Source: an uncultured Gammaproteobacteria bacterium (GTDB lineage: Bacteria; Pseudomonadota; Gammaproteobacteria; Pseudomonadales; Pseudohongiellaceae). Taken from it: DNA of 64,000 nucleotides. The notes under the pieces were generated by a model. It worked only from the letters and a program-made list of their open reading frames with translations. It was not told the origin of the DNA and searched no databases. The stretch lies in assembly GCA_913060695.1 (NCBI GenBank), contig CAJXUA010000001.1:248001-312000 (forward strand). The letters run 5' to 3'. Below are positions 25,823-51,857 of the stretch, piece by piece; positions within the stretch are counted from its first letter, which is position 1, and each line of letters opens with the position of its first letter. Made by a program: the position numbers and the translations under genes.

Positions 25823-25904
25823 TCTCGGCGAAGTGCAGAGTAATTCCGGCTTTGCCGCAGGGGTGTAAACAATCCACTTAAAGATGATGACTACGATAAA
25901 AATG

Positions 25905-26041
25905 GAGTGCTAGGGTTCCGGCATTATAGAAGATGCGACTGGTCCGAGAGCACTCGACCTTTCAAGCTGGGTTCTCTCAGAGTAAACGAACTTCAGTATT
26001 AATCTTTGTAAGGTTACACGGCGGGACAAAAGCCCGGGAGG
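25905..26041 (+). promoter_or_regulatory. guanidine-I (ykkC) riboswitch
   Basis: GAGTGC (25905-25910) pairs with GCACTC (25950-25955) as the first stem. Inside it are the conserved CTAGGGTTCCG (25910-25920), a small GCAT/ATGC arm and GGTCCGAGAG (25941-25950). The second conserved block ACACGGCGGGACAAAAGCC, then CGGGAG, spans 26017-26040. These are the hallmark sequences of the guanidine-I class, which turns on expression when guanidinium binds. A hairpin CTGACA/TGTCAG (26047-26066) follows and may be part of the expression platform. The ATG of the first gene is at 26104. Confidence 0.95.
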
Positions 26042-26103
26042 ATTCGCTGACAGCGGTTAGTGTCAGTATTTCAATACGTGAATAACATACTTGGAGAGAT
26101 GAA

Positions 26104-30258: not shown

Positions 30259-30351
30259 GCCGTAGATAAAATACAAATCCAATAACGCGCAGGACGACCT
30301 GCTGGCGTTTTCAGTAATCCTGGGACGACCCACGTCAGACAGAGAATAATC

Positions 30352-39961: not shown

Positions 39962-39982
39962 TGGTGCCCAGAGGCGGAATCG
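39962..39982 (-). repeat. left attachment site (attL)
   Basis: 21 bases identical to the 3' end of tRNA-Phe at 51782-51802, beginning TGGTGCCCAGAGGCGGAAT. The similarity ends after CG on the island side. Confidence 0.9.
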
Positions 39983-44799: not shown

Positions 44800-45087
44800 A
44801 TGAAGAAAATTTACCGTGCAGTAACCCACCCTTCCGGATGGAGCGGTCTCGCGGACTATGAAATCAGACAAGACCGTAAAATCTATCGAACCGTCTCACA
44901 CCCTGATGGTTGGGGAGGCTTGCCTGACTACGAAATACGCGGTGACGGAAAAATCTACAGAGCGATTACCCATCCAGACGGATGGGGTGGCTTACCGGAC
45001 TATGAGATTCGTGCCGATGGGAATATCTATCGTGCCGTAACTCATCCGGAAGGATGGGGCGGTTTGGCTGATTATGAGGTACGTTAA
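44800..45087 (+). CDS. small protein of four 24-residue repeats
   Basis: 95 residues from the ATG at 44800, with AAGGAG five bases upstream. After M-K the whole protein consists of four repeats (starting 44806, 44878, 44950, 45022) with the pattern K-I-Y-R-x-V-T-H-P-D-G-W-G-G-L-P-D-Y-E-I-R-x-D-G; the last is cut after R. Between repeats nearly every synonymous codon position has changed while the residues are kept, so the protein sequence is under selection. Each unit looks like a beta-hairpin, giving a small solenoid or propeller-like sheet. I know no named family. It precedes the non-coding interval and reverse transcriptase. Confidence 0.8.
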   Translation: MKKIYRAVTHPSGWSGLADYEIRQDRKIYRTVSHPDGWGGLPDYEIRGDGKIYRAITHPDGWGGLPDYEIRADGNIYRAVTHPEGWGGLADYEVR

Positions 45088-45424
45088 AGTACAGAAACTT
45101 CGGTCAGAATTGTCCACTGATTTAGCTTCGCCCACATCGTCTAGAGAGCTAAGCAAAAAGAATTGAACGGCCCCTTGAAATCGAGGGGGTGATTCCCCAC
45201 ATATATTCGGTCGGAGTGTTTCGCATACCAATTTGTTGTAACGCTGGTTGCGATCAAGCTGAAACATTGGCGCTGTCCAAAGAGCGACCGCTCTCGCTAC
45301 AGCCATGTCGCCGAAGATGTTACGCGAATCACGGAGGTCATCGTGTTTGCGCGTTTGGCGATACACTCAAGGATTCGTCGGTCTGGGGCTTTATTGCACT
45401 GACGGTAAAGGAGAGAGTAGCTTC
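45088..45424 (+). ncRNA. candidate structured RNA upstream of the reverse transcriptase
   Basis: 337 bases on the strand of the reverse transcriptase. Overlapping open frames are shadows without binding sites. Stem-loops: CCCCTTG-AAAT-CGAGGGG (45171-45188), an alternative GGGG/CCCC pairing using the same G run (45185-45198), and AGAGCG/CGCTCT (45281-45294). Many defence reverse transcriptases are preceded by a template or guide RNA of this size. No conserved retron msr/msd signature is visible. Confidence 0.4.
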
Positions 45425-46621
45425 TTGGCAACGACAGCGTTGAAGACAATCGCGTCACCAGCGTCTCTCCGATTTGAGTGGAAGGAGATGTATCGTTCGT
45501 CCAAGCCTAGCTTGCGACGAAACCGGGATGGAAATGGCGAGAGCTTTGACTCGTTTCACGCTTCCGTCAGCCAACGGGTTGGGCAGATTGCAAATCAGCT
45601 AAACCTACACGATTATAAATTCTCCCTATTAACCCCCTTTTTTGCCCCCAAGCCCAACGGAAAAGAGCGCCTGATCTGTGTCCCCACGATTCAGGACCGA
45701 TTGGTGCAGAGGACAATTTATCGTCATTTATCCAAAGGAAAATATTCTTTCGACAATGCCATTAGCTACGGATTTATCAGCGGCAAATCTACTAAATGTG
45801 CATTAAGCGCGGCGCTTCGTGAGAGGAAAAAATTCGCTTGGGTTTACAAGGCTGATATATCGTCCTTCTTCGATAGCATCGATCGCGACTTACTTAAAGA
45901 AAAACTCAGGGCAAAAGTAAGATTGAAGACATTGCACTCTGTACTTGATAGCGCAATAAACACCGAAGTGAATCTCTCTATCCCCTCCGATAGAAAGAAA
46001 ATCAGTGCAATGGGAATACGCAATGGACGTGGTTTGCGTCAAGGAATGCCACTGTCGCCCTATCTTTCAAACCTTTTCTTGTGGGACTTCGACCATTTTC
46101 TCATTGAGAAAGGCATTCGTGCGATTCGCTATGCCGATGACATCATCGCCTTTGGCAGTTCTCAAGAAGAATGTCTAGATATTCACGATATTTGTTCAAA
46201 TGCAATCGCCCGGTTGGGGTTGCATATTCACTCAATCGAACCCGGTGGGAAGACTGAAATATACCCTCCAGATACAACCGCAGAATTTTTAGGTCAAGGA
46301 ATTGCTAGAAGCGATCACGAATACTACCTTACTGTTAATAAGCCGCAGGTTGAGAATATTAAGAGCAGAATCTCGCAATACGGGGACTTTAAGTTTCTTT
46401 CAGAGAAACGTATAACAATTGGCAAACTGATCCAGAAACTCGATGCAATGATTGGGGGGTACAGTGAAGTCTATTCCGATTGCCAGAACGTCGATAAAGT
46501 GATTCAAGCAATTCAAGACCACAGGGTTGTCGTCCTCTCCAAGCTATTCAAAAAAATGGGCATTGACGTGAGTAAGTTGACCAAGGATCAGAAAGCATTC
46601 TTAGATATTCCCAGCAAATGA
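45425..46621 (+). CDS. reverse transcriptase, group II-like/unknown-group (defence type) without maturase or endonuclease
   Basis: About 398 residues from the TTG at 45425 (AAGGAG at 45408-45413). The ATG at 45488 touches its own AAGGAG and would cut the conserved N-terminal R-x-E-W-K-E-M-Y region; an ATG at 45305 would add poor sequence. Motifs in order: F-A-P-K-P-N-G-K-E-R-L-I (RT1), S-Y-G-F-I-S-G-K-S-T (RT2), Y-K-A-D-I-S-S-F-F-D-S-I-D (RT3, D144), L-R-Q-G-M-P-L-S-P-Y-L-S-N (RT4), R-Y-A-D-D (RT5, residues 236-239), G-K-T-E and E-F-L-G-Q-G (RT6-7). It is not a DGR type (QG...SP is intact) nor a typical retron type. Likely antiphage (DRT-like). Confidence 0.85.
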   Translation: MATTALKTIASPASLRFEWKEMYRSSKPSLRRNRDGNGESFDSFHASVSQRVGQIANQLNLHDYKFSLLTPFFAPKPNGKERLICVPTIQDRLVQRTIYRHLSKGKYSFDNAISYGFISGKSTKCALSAALRERKKFAWVYKADISSFFDSIDRDLLKEKLRAKVRLKTLHSVLDSAINTEVNLSIPSDRKKISAMGIRNGRGLRQGMPLSPYLSNLFLWDFDHFLIEKGIRAIRYADDIIAFGSSQEECLDIHDICSNAIARLGLHIHSIEPGGKTEIYPPDTTAEFLGQGIARSDHEYYLTVNKPQVENIKSRISQYGDFKFLSEKRITIGKLIQKLDAMIGGYSEVYSDCQNVDKVIQAIQDHRVVVLSKLFKKMGIDVSKLTKDQKAFLDIPSK

Positions 46622-46836: not shown

Positions 46837-48318
46837 ATGAAAAACATCTCTGAAGAAGAAATTATCTTTCTATTTGGTGCTGGAATTTCAATACCTATAG
46901 GGATTCCTGCCATGGCTGGCATCTATAGAAGCTTCATGAGCAAGACAAAGTCCGAATTGCCGGAAGCTCATAAAAAGATGTGCAATTTTTTTGTAGATGA
47001 AATGGGAGTTGAAGCGGATTTAGAGGAATTTCTTCTAGCTTCTAATAGAATTATTGAATTTAGAAATTCCGGTTTGAACAGATTCGTGGAAAGTAGTATA
47101 TCTAAGGTTAAATCTTCAGGGAAAGTTAAAGATTTCAATAAGAATTTGAAGTTAAATCTAGAGATTGTTGAGGCGGTAAAGGATTCAATTCTGGATTTTC
47201 TAGCCATTACTTGCTTTAAGTTTGATAGAGTAAAGGCCGAGAAAATAAATTCTGGTTTCGTTAGCTCAATTGCAAAACTTGGATACTCTGTTTATTCAAC
47301 TAATTATGATTCTGCTTTTGAACATGTTGCAAGAGAGAACAACATAGATGTTCTAGATAATTTTATCAAAGTCGGTCAAAGAACCATATGGAATGACAAC
47401 ATTAACTTTGATGGAAAGGAAGGTTTCAAATTAATTAAGCTACATGGTTCTGTTACATGGTATGAAGATGCACAACACTCAGTTGAGAAAATAGACTATC
47501 GAACTAGCATCAATCCCTTAGGGGTCGAAGTAAAAAATATTACAATCGTACCAACTAGATTTAAGGATATTTATAGTCAGAACTTCTTCGCTCTTTATTC
47601 TCATTTTTTAGTCTCTCTTTCAAAAGCGAAATTAATTGTAATTGCTGGCCATAGTTTACGCGATGATTACCTAAGAGCAGCTATCATCGAGAGAAAGAGA
47701 CAGGGCGATTTCAGAATTATCGTAGTTGATCCAAATTACCCAACAATAATTAAGAAAGACCTTCCCCCGGCAAGACAAGCTACAAATGGTGATATCATTC
47801 ACTTGCCGTACAAGTGGGAGGACATATCTGATGAATTATCATGTATTTTGCTAAATTCACCAGCTAGTAATATCGGCAAAGATTGCATAACCGTTCTTAA
47901 GCAAAGGAAGAATAAAAATAAATTGAAATTCACTGCAGGATTTAGAAAAATTTCTCCTGGCGATATTAAGGAGATTGCTGTTGAAACTCAGGCGTATCTT
48001 AGTCAAAACGAAAAGCCATCTAACTTAAGGGTGTGGCTAAAAGCGATCGTGAAGTCTTCAGATGGAACTACAAAATTTCGTGTATCTAACGAATTTATCG
48101 AAATCAAAGAGTTAGTTTTTGGTGATGAGTTAACAGGTATGGTTAATTCAGAAAACTCTATGAAGCTGAAAATCCCGCTAATTGAAGGCTGGCTTAATTC
48201 TCAAGCCGAAGTAAGCTTGGTGGTCGCGTTAATTAAGTCAAATGTCAAAAAACCTTCATTAGTTGGTAGATCGAACATAATTATATTGGATAGTAGGAAA
48301 GTTCCATACAAAGCCTAA
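46837..48318 (+). CDS. SIR2-domain protein (putative defence NADase)
   Basis: 493 residues. SIR2 core at about 1-330: G-A-G-I-S (14-18) for NAD binding, Y-S-T-N-Y-D (153-158), L-H-G-S-V-T-W with candidate catalytic His203, and A-G-H-S-L-R-D-D (270-277). The deacetylase zinc cysteines are absent, as in NADase-type SIR2 of Thoeris, DSR and short-Argonaute systems. Residues about 340-493 are a separate mainly beta region that may sense the trigger. AGAGGAC precedes the ATG. The gene is AT-rich, unlike the reverse transcriptase 215 bases upstream. Likely depletes NAD+ on infection, in the cytoplasm. Confidence 0.8.
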   Translation: MKNISEEEIIFLFGAGISIPIGIPAMAGIYRSFMSKTKSELPEAHKKMCNFFVDEMGVEADLEEFLLASNRIIEFRNSGLNRFVESSISKVKSSGKVKDFNKNLKLNLEIVEAVKDSILDFLAITCFKFDRVKAEKINSGFVSSIAKLGYSVYSTNYDSAFEHVARENNIDVLDNFIKVGQRTIWNDNINFDGKEGFKLIKLHGSVTWYEDAQHSVEKIDYRTSINPLGVEVKNITIVPTRFKDIYSQNFFALYSHFLVSLSKAKLIVIAGHSLRDDYLRAAIIERKRQGDFRIIVVDPNYPTIIKKDLPPARQATNGDIIHLPYKWEDISDELSCILLNSPASNIGKDCITVLKQRKNKNKLKFTAGFRKISPGDIKEIAVETQAYLSQNEKPSNLRVWLKAIVKSSDGTTKFRVSNEFIEIKELVFGDELTGMVNSENSMKLKIPLIEGWLNSQAEVSLVVALIKSNVKKPSLVGRSNIIILDSRKVPYKA

Positions 48319-49023: not shown

Positions 49024-49893
49024 CTAAATGTACCTTCTCTGTGCTAGATAAATTATATATGTGGAAAGTAGAGAGCTTATTATATTGGTTGAGATTGAGG
49101 TCCAAAAGTTAGAAGAAAAATAGCTTCCTATTTCAAGCCAAAAGAATAATGCCATAGATAGCAGAAAAACCACAAATATAAAAAGCCAACGTAATTTATT
49201 GAGCCGACTAATCTCGCTATGCGCTTTCTGAATTAACACTTCAGACCTTACATATCTATTTTGAAGAGCTTCGTCTAAAGACTGGGCAATCATTTCCTGC
49301 ATAAGCTCGCTGATTGTTTTATTGTTTAGTAGCTCACGTATGTTGCCTTCGCTTTCCACTGTAACAAAGTTCTTTCTAATACCGGTTTGGCCAGAATGTG
49401 GAACTTCTACGCTAGATTCGAGTTTGTGAAATTCAACTCTGGCTAATGGATCGTTCGGTTTTATGGATAGTCTTCTTGATGAAATATTGCTTAATGTAAT
49501 GTATATCTGACCTATAAATCCAGGATCAGCATAAGTATTCTCTGCAGCGAGTCCAGCTGAGAATATTTGTCCCACGGTATTGATTTTCGTATAGATATTG
49601 CTTGGTATACTGAAACATTCCTTTGCGAGTACTTTTACAGTTTGTCCTGGTTCAATTACTATTTTCCCAGTTGCATCGATAGTTTTAGGCGTGTATGTGG
49701 TTTCACCATCTTTATACGCGACTAAATGGTAGTCATCACTTACCCGGATTTCGTAAGTTGCATATTTAACATTAGATAAGTCATACGAAGACTTTGAAAA
49801 CAAAAATCCTGCCTCAATTGATTCCCTAATTTGTTTGTCGTTTAGTAACCCTGACCTGGGACCAATTCCTTCTGGTAGCTCTTGAGCGCTCAT
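49024..49893 (-). CDS. dCTP deaminase/dUTPase-fold protein with C-terminal membrane helices, active site lost
   Basis: 289 residues. Residues about 15-165 follow the Dcd/dUTPase trimer fold: N-D-K-Q-I-R-E-S-I-E, S-Y-D-L-S..., I-E-P-G-Q-T-V-K-V, Y-A-D-P-G-F-I-G-Q-I, I-K-P-N-D-P-L-A-R-V-E-F. In active Dcd the substrate loop is G-R-S-S-L-A-R-L-G and the base-activating Glu lies in V-L-E-F; here they read I-N-T-V-G-Q-I-F-S-A-G and I-T-L-S, so Arg, both Ser and Glu are missing. Then a helical linker (about 185-225) and two membrane helices (about 229-250, 262-283). Probably a nucleotide sensor tied to a membrane effector. Confidence 0.75.
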   Translation of the reverse strand: MSAQELPEGIGPRSGLLNDKQIRESIEAGFLFSKSSYDLSNVKYATYEIRVSDDYHLVAYKDGETTYTPKTIDATGKIVIEPGQTVKVLAKECFSIPSNIYTKINTVGQIFSAGLAAENTYADPGFIGQIYITLSNISSRRLSIKPNDPLARVEFHKLESSVEVPHSGQTGIRKNFVTVESEGNIRELLNNKTISELMQEMIAQSLDEALQNRYVRSEVLIQKAHSEISRLNKLRWLFIFVVFLLSMALFFWLEIGSYFSSNFWTSISTNIISSLLSTYIIYLAQRRYI

Positions 49894-50392: not shown

Positions 50393-51607
50393 TTAGTTTG
50401 ACCTCGTTACGTATCCTTGAGTAGCTGAGTCCAAATAGGTGGACCACCATTGCATCATTTTACGGCGTTCGGGAAGATGTTCAGCGCGATTGTAAGCTGC
50501 ACGAATTTGATTCTTATCTACATGGGCTAAAGAAAGCTCAATCAATTCTGATTTATACCCCTGTTCATGCAGTATTGTGCTGCCTAGGGACCTGATACCA
50601 TGAGAGACAAATTTTGATTTGTATCCCATTCGTTTAAAAGCAACATTCGCAGTTTCAGAGTTGATATGTCCACTTGTATCATTCCTGCCTGGAAACACGT
50701 ATTTTCTATGTCCACTCATGGGTTTCATGATCTGTAGAATCTGTAAAGCTTGTCGAGTTAGTGGAACTATGTGATCTCGTCTCATCTTCATCTTTTCCTT
50801 TGGAATGGTCCAAGCCGCCAAATCGAAATCTATCTCCTTCCATTCAGTTGACGCTGCTTCACCTGGACGAACTAGAGTTTGGAGCATCCAGTGGATCAAA
50901 CTCTTCGTTTCCACGGATATTTTTGATCGCTCAAGGCGGTCAAAGAATGCTGGAAGTTCTTCAGGCTTTAATGTGGGATGATTTTTGGATGAGGGGGGCG
51001 GGAATGCTTTTCTGATTCCAAATAGGCAGTTGCCAGCTATCAGGCCAGTATTGACTGCATAATCCATGATTTCGTTGAGCCATCTACATAACTTTCTGAT
51101 GGATTCGAGAAATCCATTTTCGGCAACAGGCTTTAATATCTTAATAACTTCTGGGGCTGATATTTCGGAGATCGGAACCGCTGCAAGTGTCGGGAGTACG
51201 TGCAGGTCAATAGAGTTCACCATTCTTTTCAGGTAAGAGTCAGATATTGTGACCCGTTTAACTTCGAGCCAACGATCATAAACAATAGCAAAAGTGAGTG
51301 ACATTAATTCTCTTGCTTTGTCTTCCGTGCCCTCTTTAATGTCCCGTGGATCATTCCCACACGCGAGACACTCCAGATATTGATTCCTTTGGGTGATGGC
51401 GGACTTGAGGCTAACAGAGGGGTATGAGCCAATACTCAGATTGGTCCTTCTTCCGGTATATGGCTTCGTATAGTTAAATAACCAGAGCTTTGAACCATTT
51501 GGCTTTACTCTGAGGTGTAGGCCATTCCCCGCAGAGAGGTTGTACTCTTTTGTTTTGGATTTTGCGTGCTTAATTCTAGTATCTGTAAGGGTAGTTATTC
51601 TGGGCAT
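50393..51607 (-). CDS. int: tyrosine-type site-specific integrase, P4 family
   Basis: 404 residues from the ATG at 51607 (GGAG eight bases upstream); a TTG seven codons earlier is less likely. N-terminal DUF4102 domain (L-T-D-T-R-I-K-H-A-K ... G-L-H-L-R-V-K-P-N-G-S-K-L-W), core-binding region about 100-200, catalytic domain with Arg in V-R-P-G-E-A-A-S, H-x-x-R in H-G-I-R-S-L-G-S, L-A-H-V-D-K and the nucleophile Tyr in A-A-Y-N-R-A. All residues are intact, so the island may still move. It lies 174 bases from tRNA-Phe and its leader holds TGTTACA arm-type sites. Confidence 0.95.
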   Translation of the reverse strand: MPRITTLTDTRIKHAKSKTKEYNLSAGNGLHLRVKPNGSKLWLFNYTKPYTGRRTNLSIGSYPSVSLKSAITQRNQYLECLACGNDPRDIKEGTEDKARELMSLTFAIVYDRWLEVKRVTISDSYLKRMVNSIDLHVLPTLAAVPISEISAPEVIKILKPVAENGFLESIRKLCRWLNEIMDYAVNTGLIAGNCLFGIRKAFPPPSSKNHPTLKPEELPAFFDRLERSKISVETKSLIHWMLQTLVRPGEAASTEWKEIDFDLAAWTIPKEKMKMRRDHIVPLTRQALQILQIMKPMSGHRKYVFPGRNDTSGHINSETANVAFKRMGYKSKFVSHGIRSLGSTILHEQGYKSELIELSLAHVDKNQIRAAYNRAEHLPERRKMMQWWSTYLDSATQGYVTRSN

Positions 51608-51620
51608 ACCAGTTCTCCGT

Positions 51621-51668
51621 TGTAACATTCCCCTTTATTTATTCAATAGTGTTACTAGGGGTGTTACA
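51621..51668. promoter_or_regulatory. probable integrase arm sites, right end
   Basis: TGTAACA (51621-51627, inverted), TGTTACT (51650-51656) and TGTTACA (51662-51668). The first is just upstream of the integrase start, so binding there could also control the integrase gene. Confidence 0.5.
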
Positions 51669-51781: not shown

Positions 51782-51857
51782 TGGTGCCCAGAGGCGGAAT
51801 CGAACCACCGACACGAGGATTTTCAATCCTCTGCTCTACCGACTGAGCTATCTGGGC
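51782..51857 (-). tRNA. tRNA-Phe (GAA)
   Basis: 76 bases including encoded CCA. Acceptor GCCCAGA pairs with TCTGGGC; anticodon stem GAGGA/TCCTC with loop TTGAAAA, so anticodon GAA (51824-51822). T-arm GGTTCGA and D-arm AGCTCAGTCGGTAGAGC are standard. Its 3' 21 bases are the integration site of the island; the gene is kept intact by the element. Confidence 0.97.

Follow-up and report, generated by a model that had tools for sequence, protein, structure and literature searches.

A clade of bacterial reverse transcriptases with long upstream direct repeats and a possible route to gene assembly

Which of the sequences that precede a bacterial reverse transcriptase (RT) gene belong with it, and what might they do together? 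The question is raised by a locus in the window (the whole stretch of 64,000 nucleotides that was analysed), where an RT gene follows a short interval and a small repeat-protein gene on the same strand. The original prediction joined these three parts into one RT-based phage defence system, with DRT2 and DRT9 as its models. The features of the locus and its surroundings are as follows.

39962 to 39982, no strand: 21-bp copy of the tRNA-Phe 3' end, likely the left island boundary (repeat comparison)
44800 to 45087, plus strand: gene of the four-repeat small protein P0002, judged to lie outside the system (sequence, homologue and co-occurrence searches)
45088 to 45424, plus strand: interval between the P0002 gene and the RT gene, candidate remnant of a repeat-spacer-repeat element (repeat, genome-copy and similarity searches)
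45153 to 45443, plus strand: stop-free frame crossing the RT start, not beyond chance in the window; the repeat frames of relatives likewise end near the RT start
45376 to 45404, plus strand: hairpin with a 7-bp stem (one G-U), shortly before the RT ribosome site (minimum-energy fold, without control)
45425 to 46621, plus strand: reverse transcriptase, member of an unnamed clade (open reading frame, Pfam, comparison of starts, profile, tree)
50393 to 51628, minus strand: tyrosine integrase of the island (Pfam)
51782 to 51802, no strand: 21-bp repeat within the tRNA-Phe 3' end, likely the right island boundary (Rfam tRNA, repeat comparison)

The reverse transcriptase and its relatives

The RT (P0001) is encoded by an intact plus-strand frame (45425-46621) that begins with TTG, follows an AAGGAG ribosome site at 45408-45413 and yields 398 residues. 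The protein matches Pfam RVT_1 (E = 4.6e-29), its RT core is intact, and the active-site YADD occupies residues 236-239 (46130-46141). No maturase or endonuclease family matched it in Pfam at E 1. The description of the gene as complete, TTG-initiated and free of maturase and endonuclease domains therefore holds. An alternative ATG at 45305 opens the same frame and would give a protein of 438 aa; we favour 45425 because the RTs of relatives begin approximately at the position of the TTG.

Scans of plasmids, genomes and viral contigs recovered family members from Acinetobacter, Acetobacter, Actirhodobacter, Tsuneonella and Novosphingobium, from an alphaproteobacterial MAG and from three viral contigs. 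A profile built from the window RT and ten relatives scored 15 records at 358-531 bits, against at most 161 bits for every other RT compared. The window RT, itself included in the model, scored 509 bits; L094, the one lineage outside the model, scored 358 bits and also carries the repeat pair described below. In a tree of 57 RTs the 12 lineages are monophyletic (support 100/98), and the window RT groups with L021, L046 and L094 inside the clade (96/89). By profile and tree, the RT is one of 12 lineages of an unnamed monophyletic clade. Scans with other alignments returned only known loci again or weak distant matches, with the exception of L094, and a single-protein viral scan found no further member. 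A strict search of 369 genomes of the class (E 1e-60) recovered the window RT only, and 17 phage records gave partial RT matches, none covering more than 80% of the query.

The near-copies L096, L098 and L099 were excluded from the lineage count. Rows left out comprise L097 (RT gene broken by an inversion), L045 (too little upstream sequence), the controls L004, L080 and L106 (too short), and L001, L092, L093, L095 and L137-L140 (duplicates of known loci); L141-L143 stand outside the profile ranking. L028/L099, L030 and L097 have interrupted RTs. L097 (A. baumannii X4-300) differs from L027 by the inversion of a 766-bp segment within the RT gene, the remainder of the compared stretch being identical. 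Close to both ends of this segment, though not exactly at them, there is a 15-nt inverted match, and the inversion is possibly an invertible switch or an assembly artefact. Downstream of the Acetobacter RT, a gene annotated as DNA damage-inducible protein contains a long run of exact 10-nt tandem repeats (L022:6050-6365).

A profile search of the PDB with the window RT placed Cas6-RT-Cas1, group II and G2L4 enzymes first (145-155 bits), whereas DRT9, DRT2 and DRT3a scored much lower, at 38-47 bits. Structural comparison of the fold model (pLDDT 91.4) gave the same picture: G2L4 and GsI-IIC were the top matches at TM 0.73-0.75, and DRT9 and DRT2 reached 0.53-0.61. In profile and modelled fold the clade is group-II-like, its nearest neighbours being group II, CRISPR-associated and G2L4 RTs. 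G2L4 RTs have YIDD in place of YADD, according to the available part of PMC4244168, whereas P0001 carries YADD. The original prediction had set a group II identity, with intron RNA around the gene, against its own reading. Of this alternative the profile and fold affinity stands, whereas no group II intron RNA was found in the whole window (Rfam, gathering score), and the group II RT/maturase equivalog model scored the RT at 160.7 bits against a cut-off of 300. In the tree, moreover, the 12 lineages lie outside a 30-row clade of mostly group-II-like RTs (98/96) and on the same side as the UG rows, the DGR-like rows and one CRISPR row; these deep joins are unsafe because the branches are long.

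Membership of a modelled UG or DRT type was likewise not borne out. The NCBIfam Drt2 model scored the RT at 46.5 against a cut-off of 390. The best UG model was UG17, on which the window RT reached 129 bits and seven relatives 122-152 bits, while a true UG17 reached 511. The other UG17-model matches listed, down to E 1e-30, scored 106-172 bits; from their scores and the tree we read these as group II RTs. Because 129 bits lies within that range while a true member scores 511, these scores place the RT outside the UG/DRT types modelled by PADLOC 2.0 that appeared among the matches listed. UG17/DRT10 membership, suggested by the best PADLOC UG match, was rejected, a true UG17 scoring four times higher. 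A deeper kinship with UG17 is possible, since the one true UG17 fetched scored 125 bits on the family profile, no lower than many group-II-like RTs. A UG26 search of 229 genomes gave 0 matches, as did its own controls.

Direct repeats and the reading frame upstream of relatives

Directly upstream of the RT, most relatives carry two direct repeats, R1 and R2, that are 94-150 nt long and 97-100% identical. Among family records with 600 nt or more of upstream sequence, the pair is present in 11 of 14, corresponding to 9 of 11 lineages, and is missing in the window, in Acetobacter (L022) and in L098. The window and Acetobacter loci lack it although their RTs are apparently intact. When control loci were positioned by profile, a repeat pair was found at 8 of 94 other RT loci, near-duplicates included; an earlier control positioned by tblastn gave 0 of 22, most control RTs having had no tblastn match.

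Between loci, R has no blastn similarity except among L029-L031, and among these three 30 columns differ between loci, yet R1 equals R2 in all of them. Because the two copies are 97-100% identical in nine lineages while R differs between loci, their identity is maintained rather than recent, and by this comparison R1 and R2 undergo concerted evolution.

The distance from R1 to R2, which defines a unit of repeat plus spacer, is 399, 378, 387, 342, 342, 342, 375, 381 and 453 nt in the nine lineages. All nine lengths are divisible by three; counting the seven distinct lengths, the chance of this is (1/3)^7, or 0.0005. When units are joined head to tail, a stop-free frame runs along the plus strand, that of the RT, in 9 of 9 lineages with the pair; in L046, and in no other, the opposite strand has one too. 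Dinucleotide shuffles were stop-free in at most 0.4% of cases for the units of ordinary or low GC (L021, L027, L028, L032 and L094). The four GC-rich units (L029, L030, L031 and L046) add little, because 20-46% of their shuffles are open.

Between L029 and L030, pN/pS is 0.40 in the open frame and 1.07 and 1.09 in the other frames (25 differences), which at the sequence level shows purifying selection in the open frame alone. The more distant comparisons L029/L031 and L030/L031 carry no coding signal (pS 0.41-0.42, pN 0.36-0.37). Under a permissive definition applied without a control, the spacer of all nine contains a start codon in frame, accompanied by a Shine-Dalgarno-like motif. Hydrophobic 19-mers (KD 1.8 or more) occur in 7 of 9 spacers and are unusual relative to residue shuffles in 5 of 9 (P 0.04 or less); L032 and L094 have no clear hydrophobic segment. 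No promoter inside the unit was clearly above resampling (P 0.04-1.0). In the eight loci with a clear RT start, the native frame stops close to that start, from about 60 nt upstream to 5 nt past it; L094, whose RT start is uncertain, was left out of this comparison.

A candidate route to gene assembly and its alternatives

We lean slightly towards the view that the RTs of this clade make a gene by reverse transcription, through a concatemer of the R1-spacer-R2 element, and that the window is a derived locus in which the RT has been kept. A transcript spanning R1, spacer and R2 would be copied by the RT from R2 towards R1, and the end of the cDNA would then re-pair with R2 through the long repeat, in the manner of retroviral strand transfer or of the A-B-A' reset of DRT10 and telomerase. 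Retroviral R regions are terminal direct repeats that enable strand transfer, and the likeness of the clade's repeats to them is one of analogy only: the clade has no LTRs, integrase or packaging. Repeated copying would give a concatemer of 342-453 nt units with a stop-free plus-strand frame. Once made double-stranded and transcribed, this concatemer would encode a protein without an end, often hydrophobic, which would probably serve in phage defence as an effector that stops growth and arrests the cell. The order R1, spacer, R2, RT, the concerted evolution and the unit arithmetic are read directly from the relatives, while the steps that link them are modelled on DRT2 and DRT10 as described in the available parts of PMC12039810 and PMC12632851. 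That an RT lineage outside the modelled UG/DRT types assembles genes de novo in the manner of DRT2, by way of long direct repeats, to give an endless, membrane-active protein, and that it perhaps evolved this independently, is to us an evenly balanced proposition.

DRT2, according to the available part of PMC12039810, has genes hidden in non-coding RNA that are made only by reverse transcription. Its Neo (nearly-endless ORF) units are stop-free, divisible by three, 111-129 nt long and ACA-bounded, the frame is antisense to the ncRNA, and a promoter is reconstituted across units. Compared with DRT2 as described there, the clade likewise has an RT with an adjacent template element, units that are divisible by three and stop-free across junctions, and a hydrophobic tendency. 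A stop-free unit divisible by three is a trait of all nine relatives with the pair, and no such unit was found in the window. The clade differs from the same description in several respects: its RT lies far under the Drt2 cut-off, its units are 342-453 nt long, they are bounded by direct repeats of 94-150 nt and not by ACA, and their frame runs on the strand of the RT in all nine instead of antisense, with a promoter not clearly above chance. Because RT, flanking repeats, frame strand and promoter reconstitution all differ, the product would, if our reading is right, be DRT2-like without DRT2 membership.

DRT10 (UG17), in the text available of PMC12632851, uses an A-B-A' template with repeats of 2-4 nt to make a short tandem DNA product and requires a SLATT protein. 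Set beside that description, the clade shares a repeat on either side of the template that allows re-annealing. Its repeats measure 94-150 nt rather than 2-4 nt, no SLATT gene was found beside the RT among the 10 window proteins scanned against Pfam, and the UG17 scores are those given above.

If the proposal is true, a second lineage with another RT and another template design would have arrived at the same arithmetic, and invisible genes would not be peculiar to DRT2. A simple genomic rule would serve to find them, namely near-identical direct repeats beside an RT, at a spacing that keeps a circular frame open, and retroviral strand transfer would have a bacterial counterpart. Even without gene assembly, the strict concerted evolution of RT-adjacent repeats demands a copying mechanism. 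The open-access literature (titles and beginnings of abstracts, among the matches listed, with subscription papers mostly missing) held no description of the clade or of a repeat-flanked endless unit outside DRT2.

The window itself has to be reconciled with this proposal. Its interval, predicted as 337 hairpin-rich bases directly before the RT, lies where it was placed, and the RT-proximal part folds into hairpins (minimum-energy fold, without a shuffle control). A hairpin in a comparable position before the RT is also predicted for several relatives, again in minimum-energy folds without a control. A count of pairs in this hairpin among three Acinetobacter-type relatives found two doubly changed pairs, a weak signal that 54 of 500 shuffles matched. 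The interval matches no Rfam family at gathering score, and at 90 codons the longest stop-free stretch on its plus strand is unremarkable (P 0.13, first-order Markov resampling). The direct-repeat pair is absent from it, no second copy of it exists elsewhere in the genome, and it has no similarity to the unit of any relative; the Acetobacter upstream DNA likewise resembles none of the relatives' units. The idea of an RT with an upstream element is thus upheld for the clade, where the element is mostly a direct-repeat pair with an endless frame, but the window copy lacks the pair.

Because the window sits inside the clade, the absence of the pair is most simply a loss. The locus looks collapsed, mis-assembled or divergent. 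Most likely it is derived, having lost one repeat and the spacer (or been collapsed during assembly; the genome assembly has 47 contigs), and stands by chance behind an unrelated mobile gene. Recombination loss between long repeats, assembly collapse and a real variant all fit the present sequence. Alternatively, the interval could be a complete but different RNA template with short repeats, like the ACA of DRT2, in a functional locus. This reading concerns the window only and is compatible with gene assembly in the relatives. It would account for the intact RT core, for the hairpin before the RT and for the lack of the pair in both the window and Acetobacter. It predicts short repeats around a unit, however, and of the exact repeats of at least 7 nt and at least 60 nt apart within 45088-45424 there are three, none of which bounds a unit divisible by three (homology shorter than 7 nt is below the reach of this search). 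We consider it unlikely but worth keeping in view.

For the relatives, the R1-spacer-R2 stretch might instead be an ordinary gene whose end was duplicated in frame. It would encode a small membrane protein that begins and ends with an R domain, a unit length divisible by three would be trivial and the RT would be a mere neighbour. The native frame is indeed open through R1, spacer and R2, and a possible start codon (ATG, GTG or TTG) lies within R1 in L021 and L027 and before R1 in L028, L029, L030, L031 and L094, so that 7 of 9 loci could encode a native R-spacer-R protein. L032 and L046, however, have no listed start in or upstream of R1 in this frame. An ordinary gene also sits poorly with R1 and R2 being kept 97-100% identical at the DNA level in nine lineages, though R is dissimilar between loci outside L029-L031, and we hold this explanation to be rather unlikely.

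The concerted evolution could also reflect retrohoming of the kind found in diversity-generating retroelements (DGRs), without mutagenesis, the RT copying one repeat into the other and so keeping them identical. In DGRs the VR lies at the 3' end of an open reading frame and is followed by a hairpin. The clade resembles this layout in having a repeat pair near the RT, with R2 at the 3' end of a frame and a hairpin after it, and the strict concerted evolution would follow. A-directed mismatches between the copies are the mark of DGRs. The eight control pairs are a good contrast here because their mismatches are DGR-like, 72 of 77 falling on A of the second copy. In the nine family pairs there are 12 mismatches in total, of which 2 are at A of R2 and 4 at A of R1, with 0 transitions (chance 0.008). 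DGR identity, sought through A-directed R1/R2 differences, was not borne out, and by this measure the repeats are not DGR-like. Moreover L074, the one A-directed control in the tree, falls in a separate 10-row clade (100/100), and DGR-like copying does not predict unit lengths divisible by three. We regard this alternative as distinctly unlikely, and return to gene assembly through the concatemer as the reading that we prefer.

As a separate observation, the R1/R2 mismatches, which occur in L021, L027, L032, L046 and L094, are transversions in 12 of 12 cases, and in 8 of these the base is exchanged for its complement.

The repeat-protein gene and the island

The repeat-protein gene predicted before the interval exists as a gene, encoding P0002, 95 aa with four repeats of about 24 residues each; its predicted role does not survive comparison. 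Five small plasmids from Escherichia and Enterobacter, together with one Cupriavidus replicon, carry homologues with 54.7-63.8% identity, and a 72% homologue sits on a prophage-like contig. Nine stretches with P0002-like genes, some of them weak matches, contain no RT match among frames of at least 60 residues. Conversely, the gene is absent from 14 of 14 other RT-family records (L094, L096, L098 and L099 included), so that a check of co-occurrence in relatives, as the original prediction had proposed, finds homologous RTs without the repeat protein. Within the 369 genomes of the class, P0002 was matched in 5, its own included, the remainder weakly. Given that its homologues occur without an RT, on plasmids and a prophage contig, and that the other 14 family records lack it, we conclude from these searches that the P0002 gene is a bystander unrelated to the RT. 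As a partner of the RT it was rejected.

That repeat protein, interval RNA and RT form a new DRT is highly improbable: the parts are packed tightly on one strand within an island, but P0002 and an RT co-occur nowhere else among the stretches examined, and the structural match of P0002 (best PDB match E 0.46, from a one-sequence model of mean pLDDT 71.9) is uninformative for or against.

P0002 is modelled, with modest confidence, as beta strands. The P0002-type family (window, L023, L024, L026, L129 and L132) is unnamed, has four repeats of about 24 residues, is often unannotated and occurs on small plasmids and a prophage contig. A frame in L134, a weak P0002 match, has repeated SLADWEMRSDRN motifs with variable stretches between them.

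The placement of the locus inside an island is borne out. The 21-bp repeats derived from tRNA-Phe bracket about 11.8 kb that include the RT locus and the integrase, the latter at one end. At 215 nt past the RT, a SIR2-domain protein of 493 aa (46837-48318, plus strand) resembles defence SIR2 proteins, and a dCTP-deaminase-like protein of 289 aa is encoded at 49024-49893 on the minus strand, its C-terminal part membrane-spanning by eye. Across the whole window, Rfam at gathering score gave three matches, namely one tRNA and two guanidine riboswitches. The latter, a guanidine-I (25899-26042) and a guanidine-II (30286-30333, exactly at the gathering score), lie a few kb apart on the plus strand.
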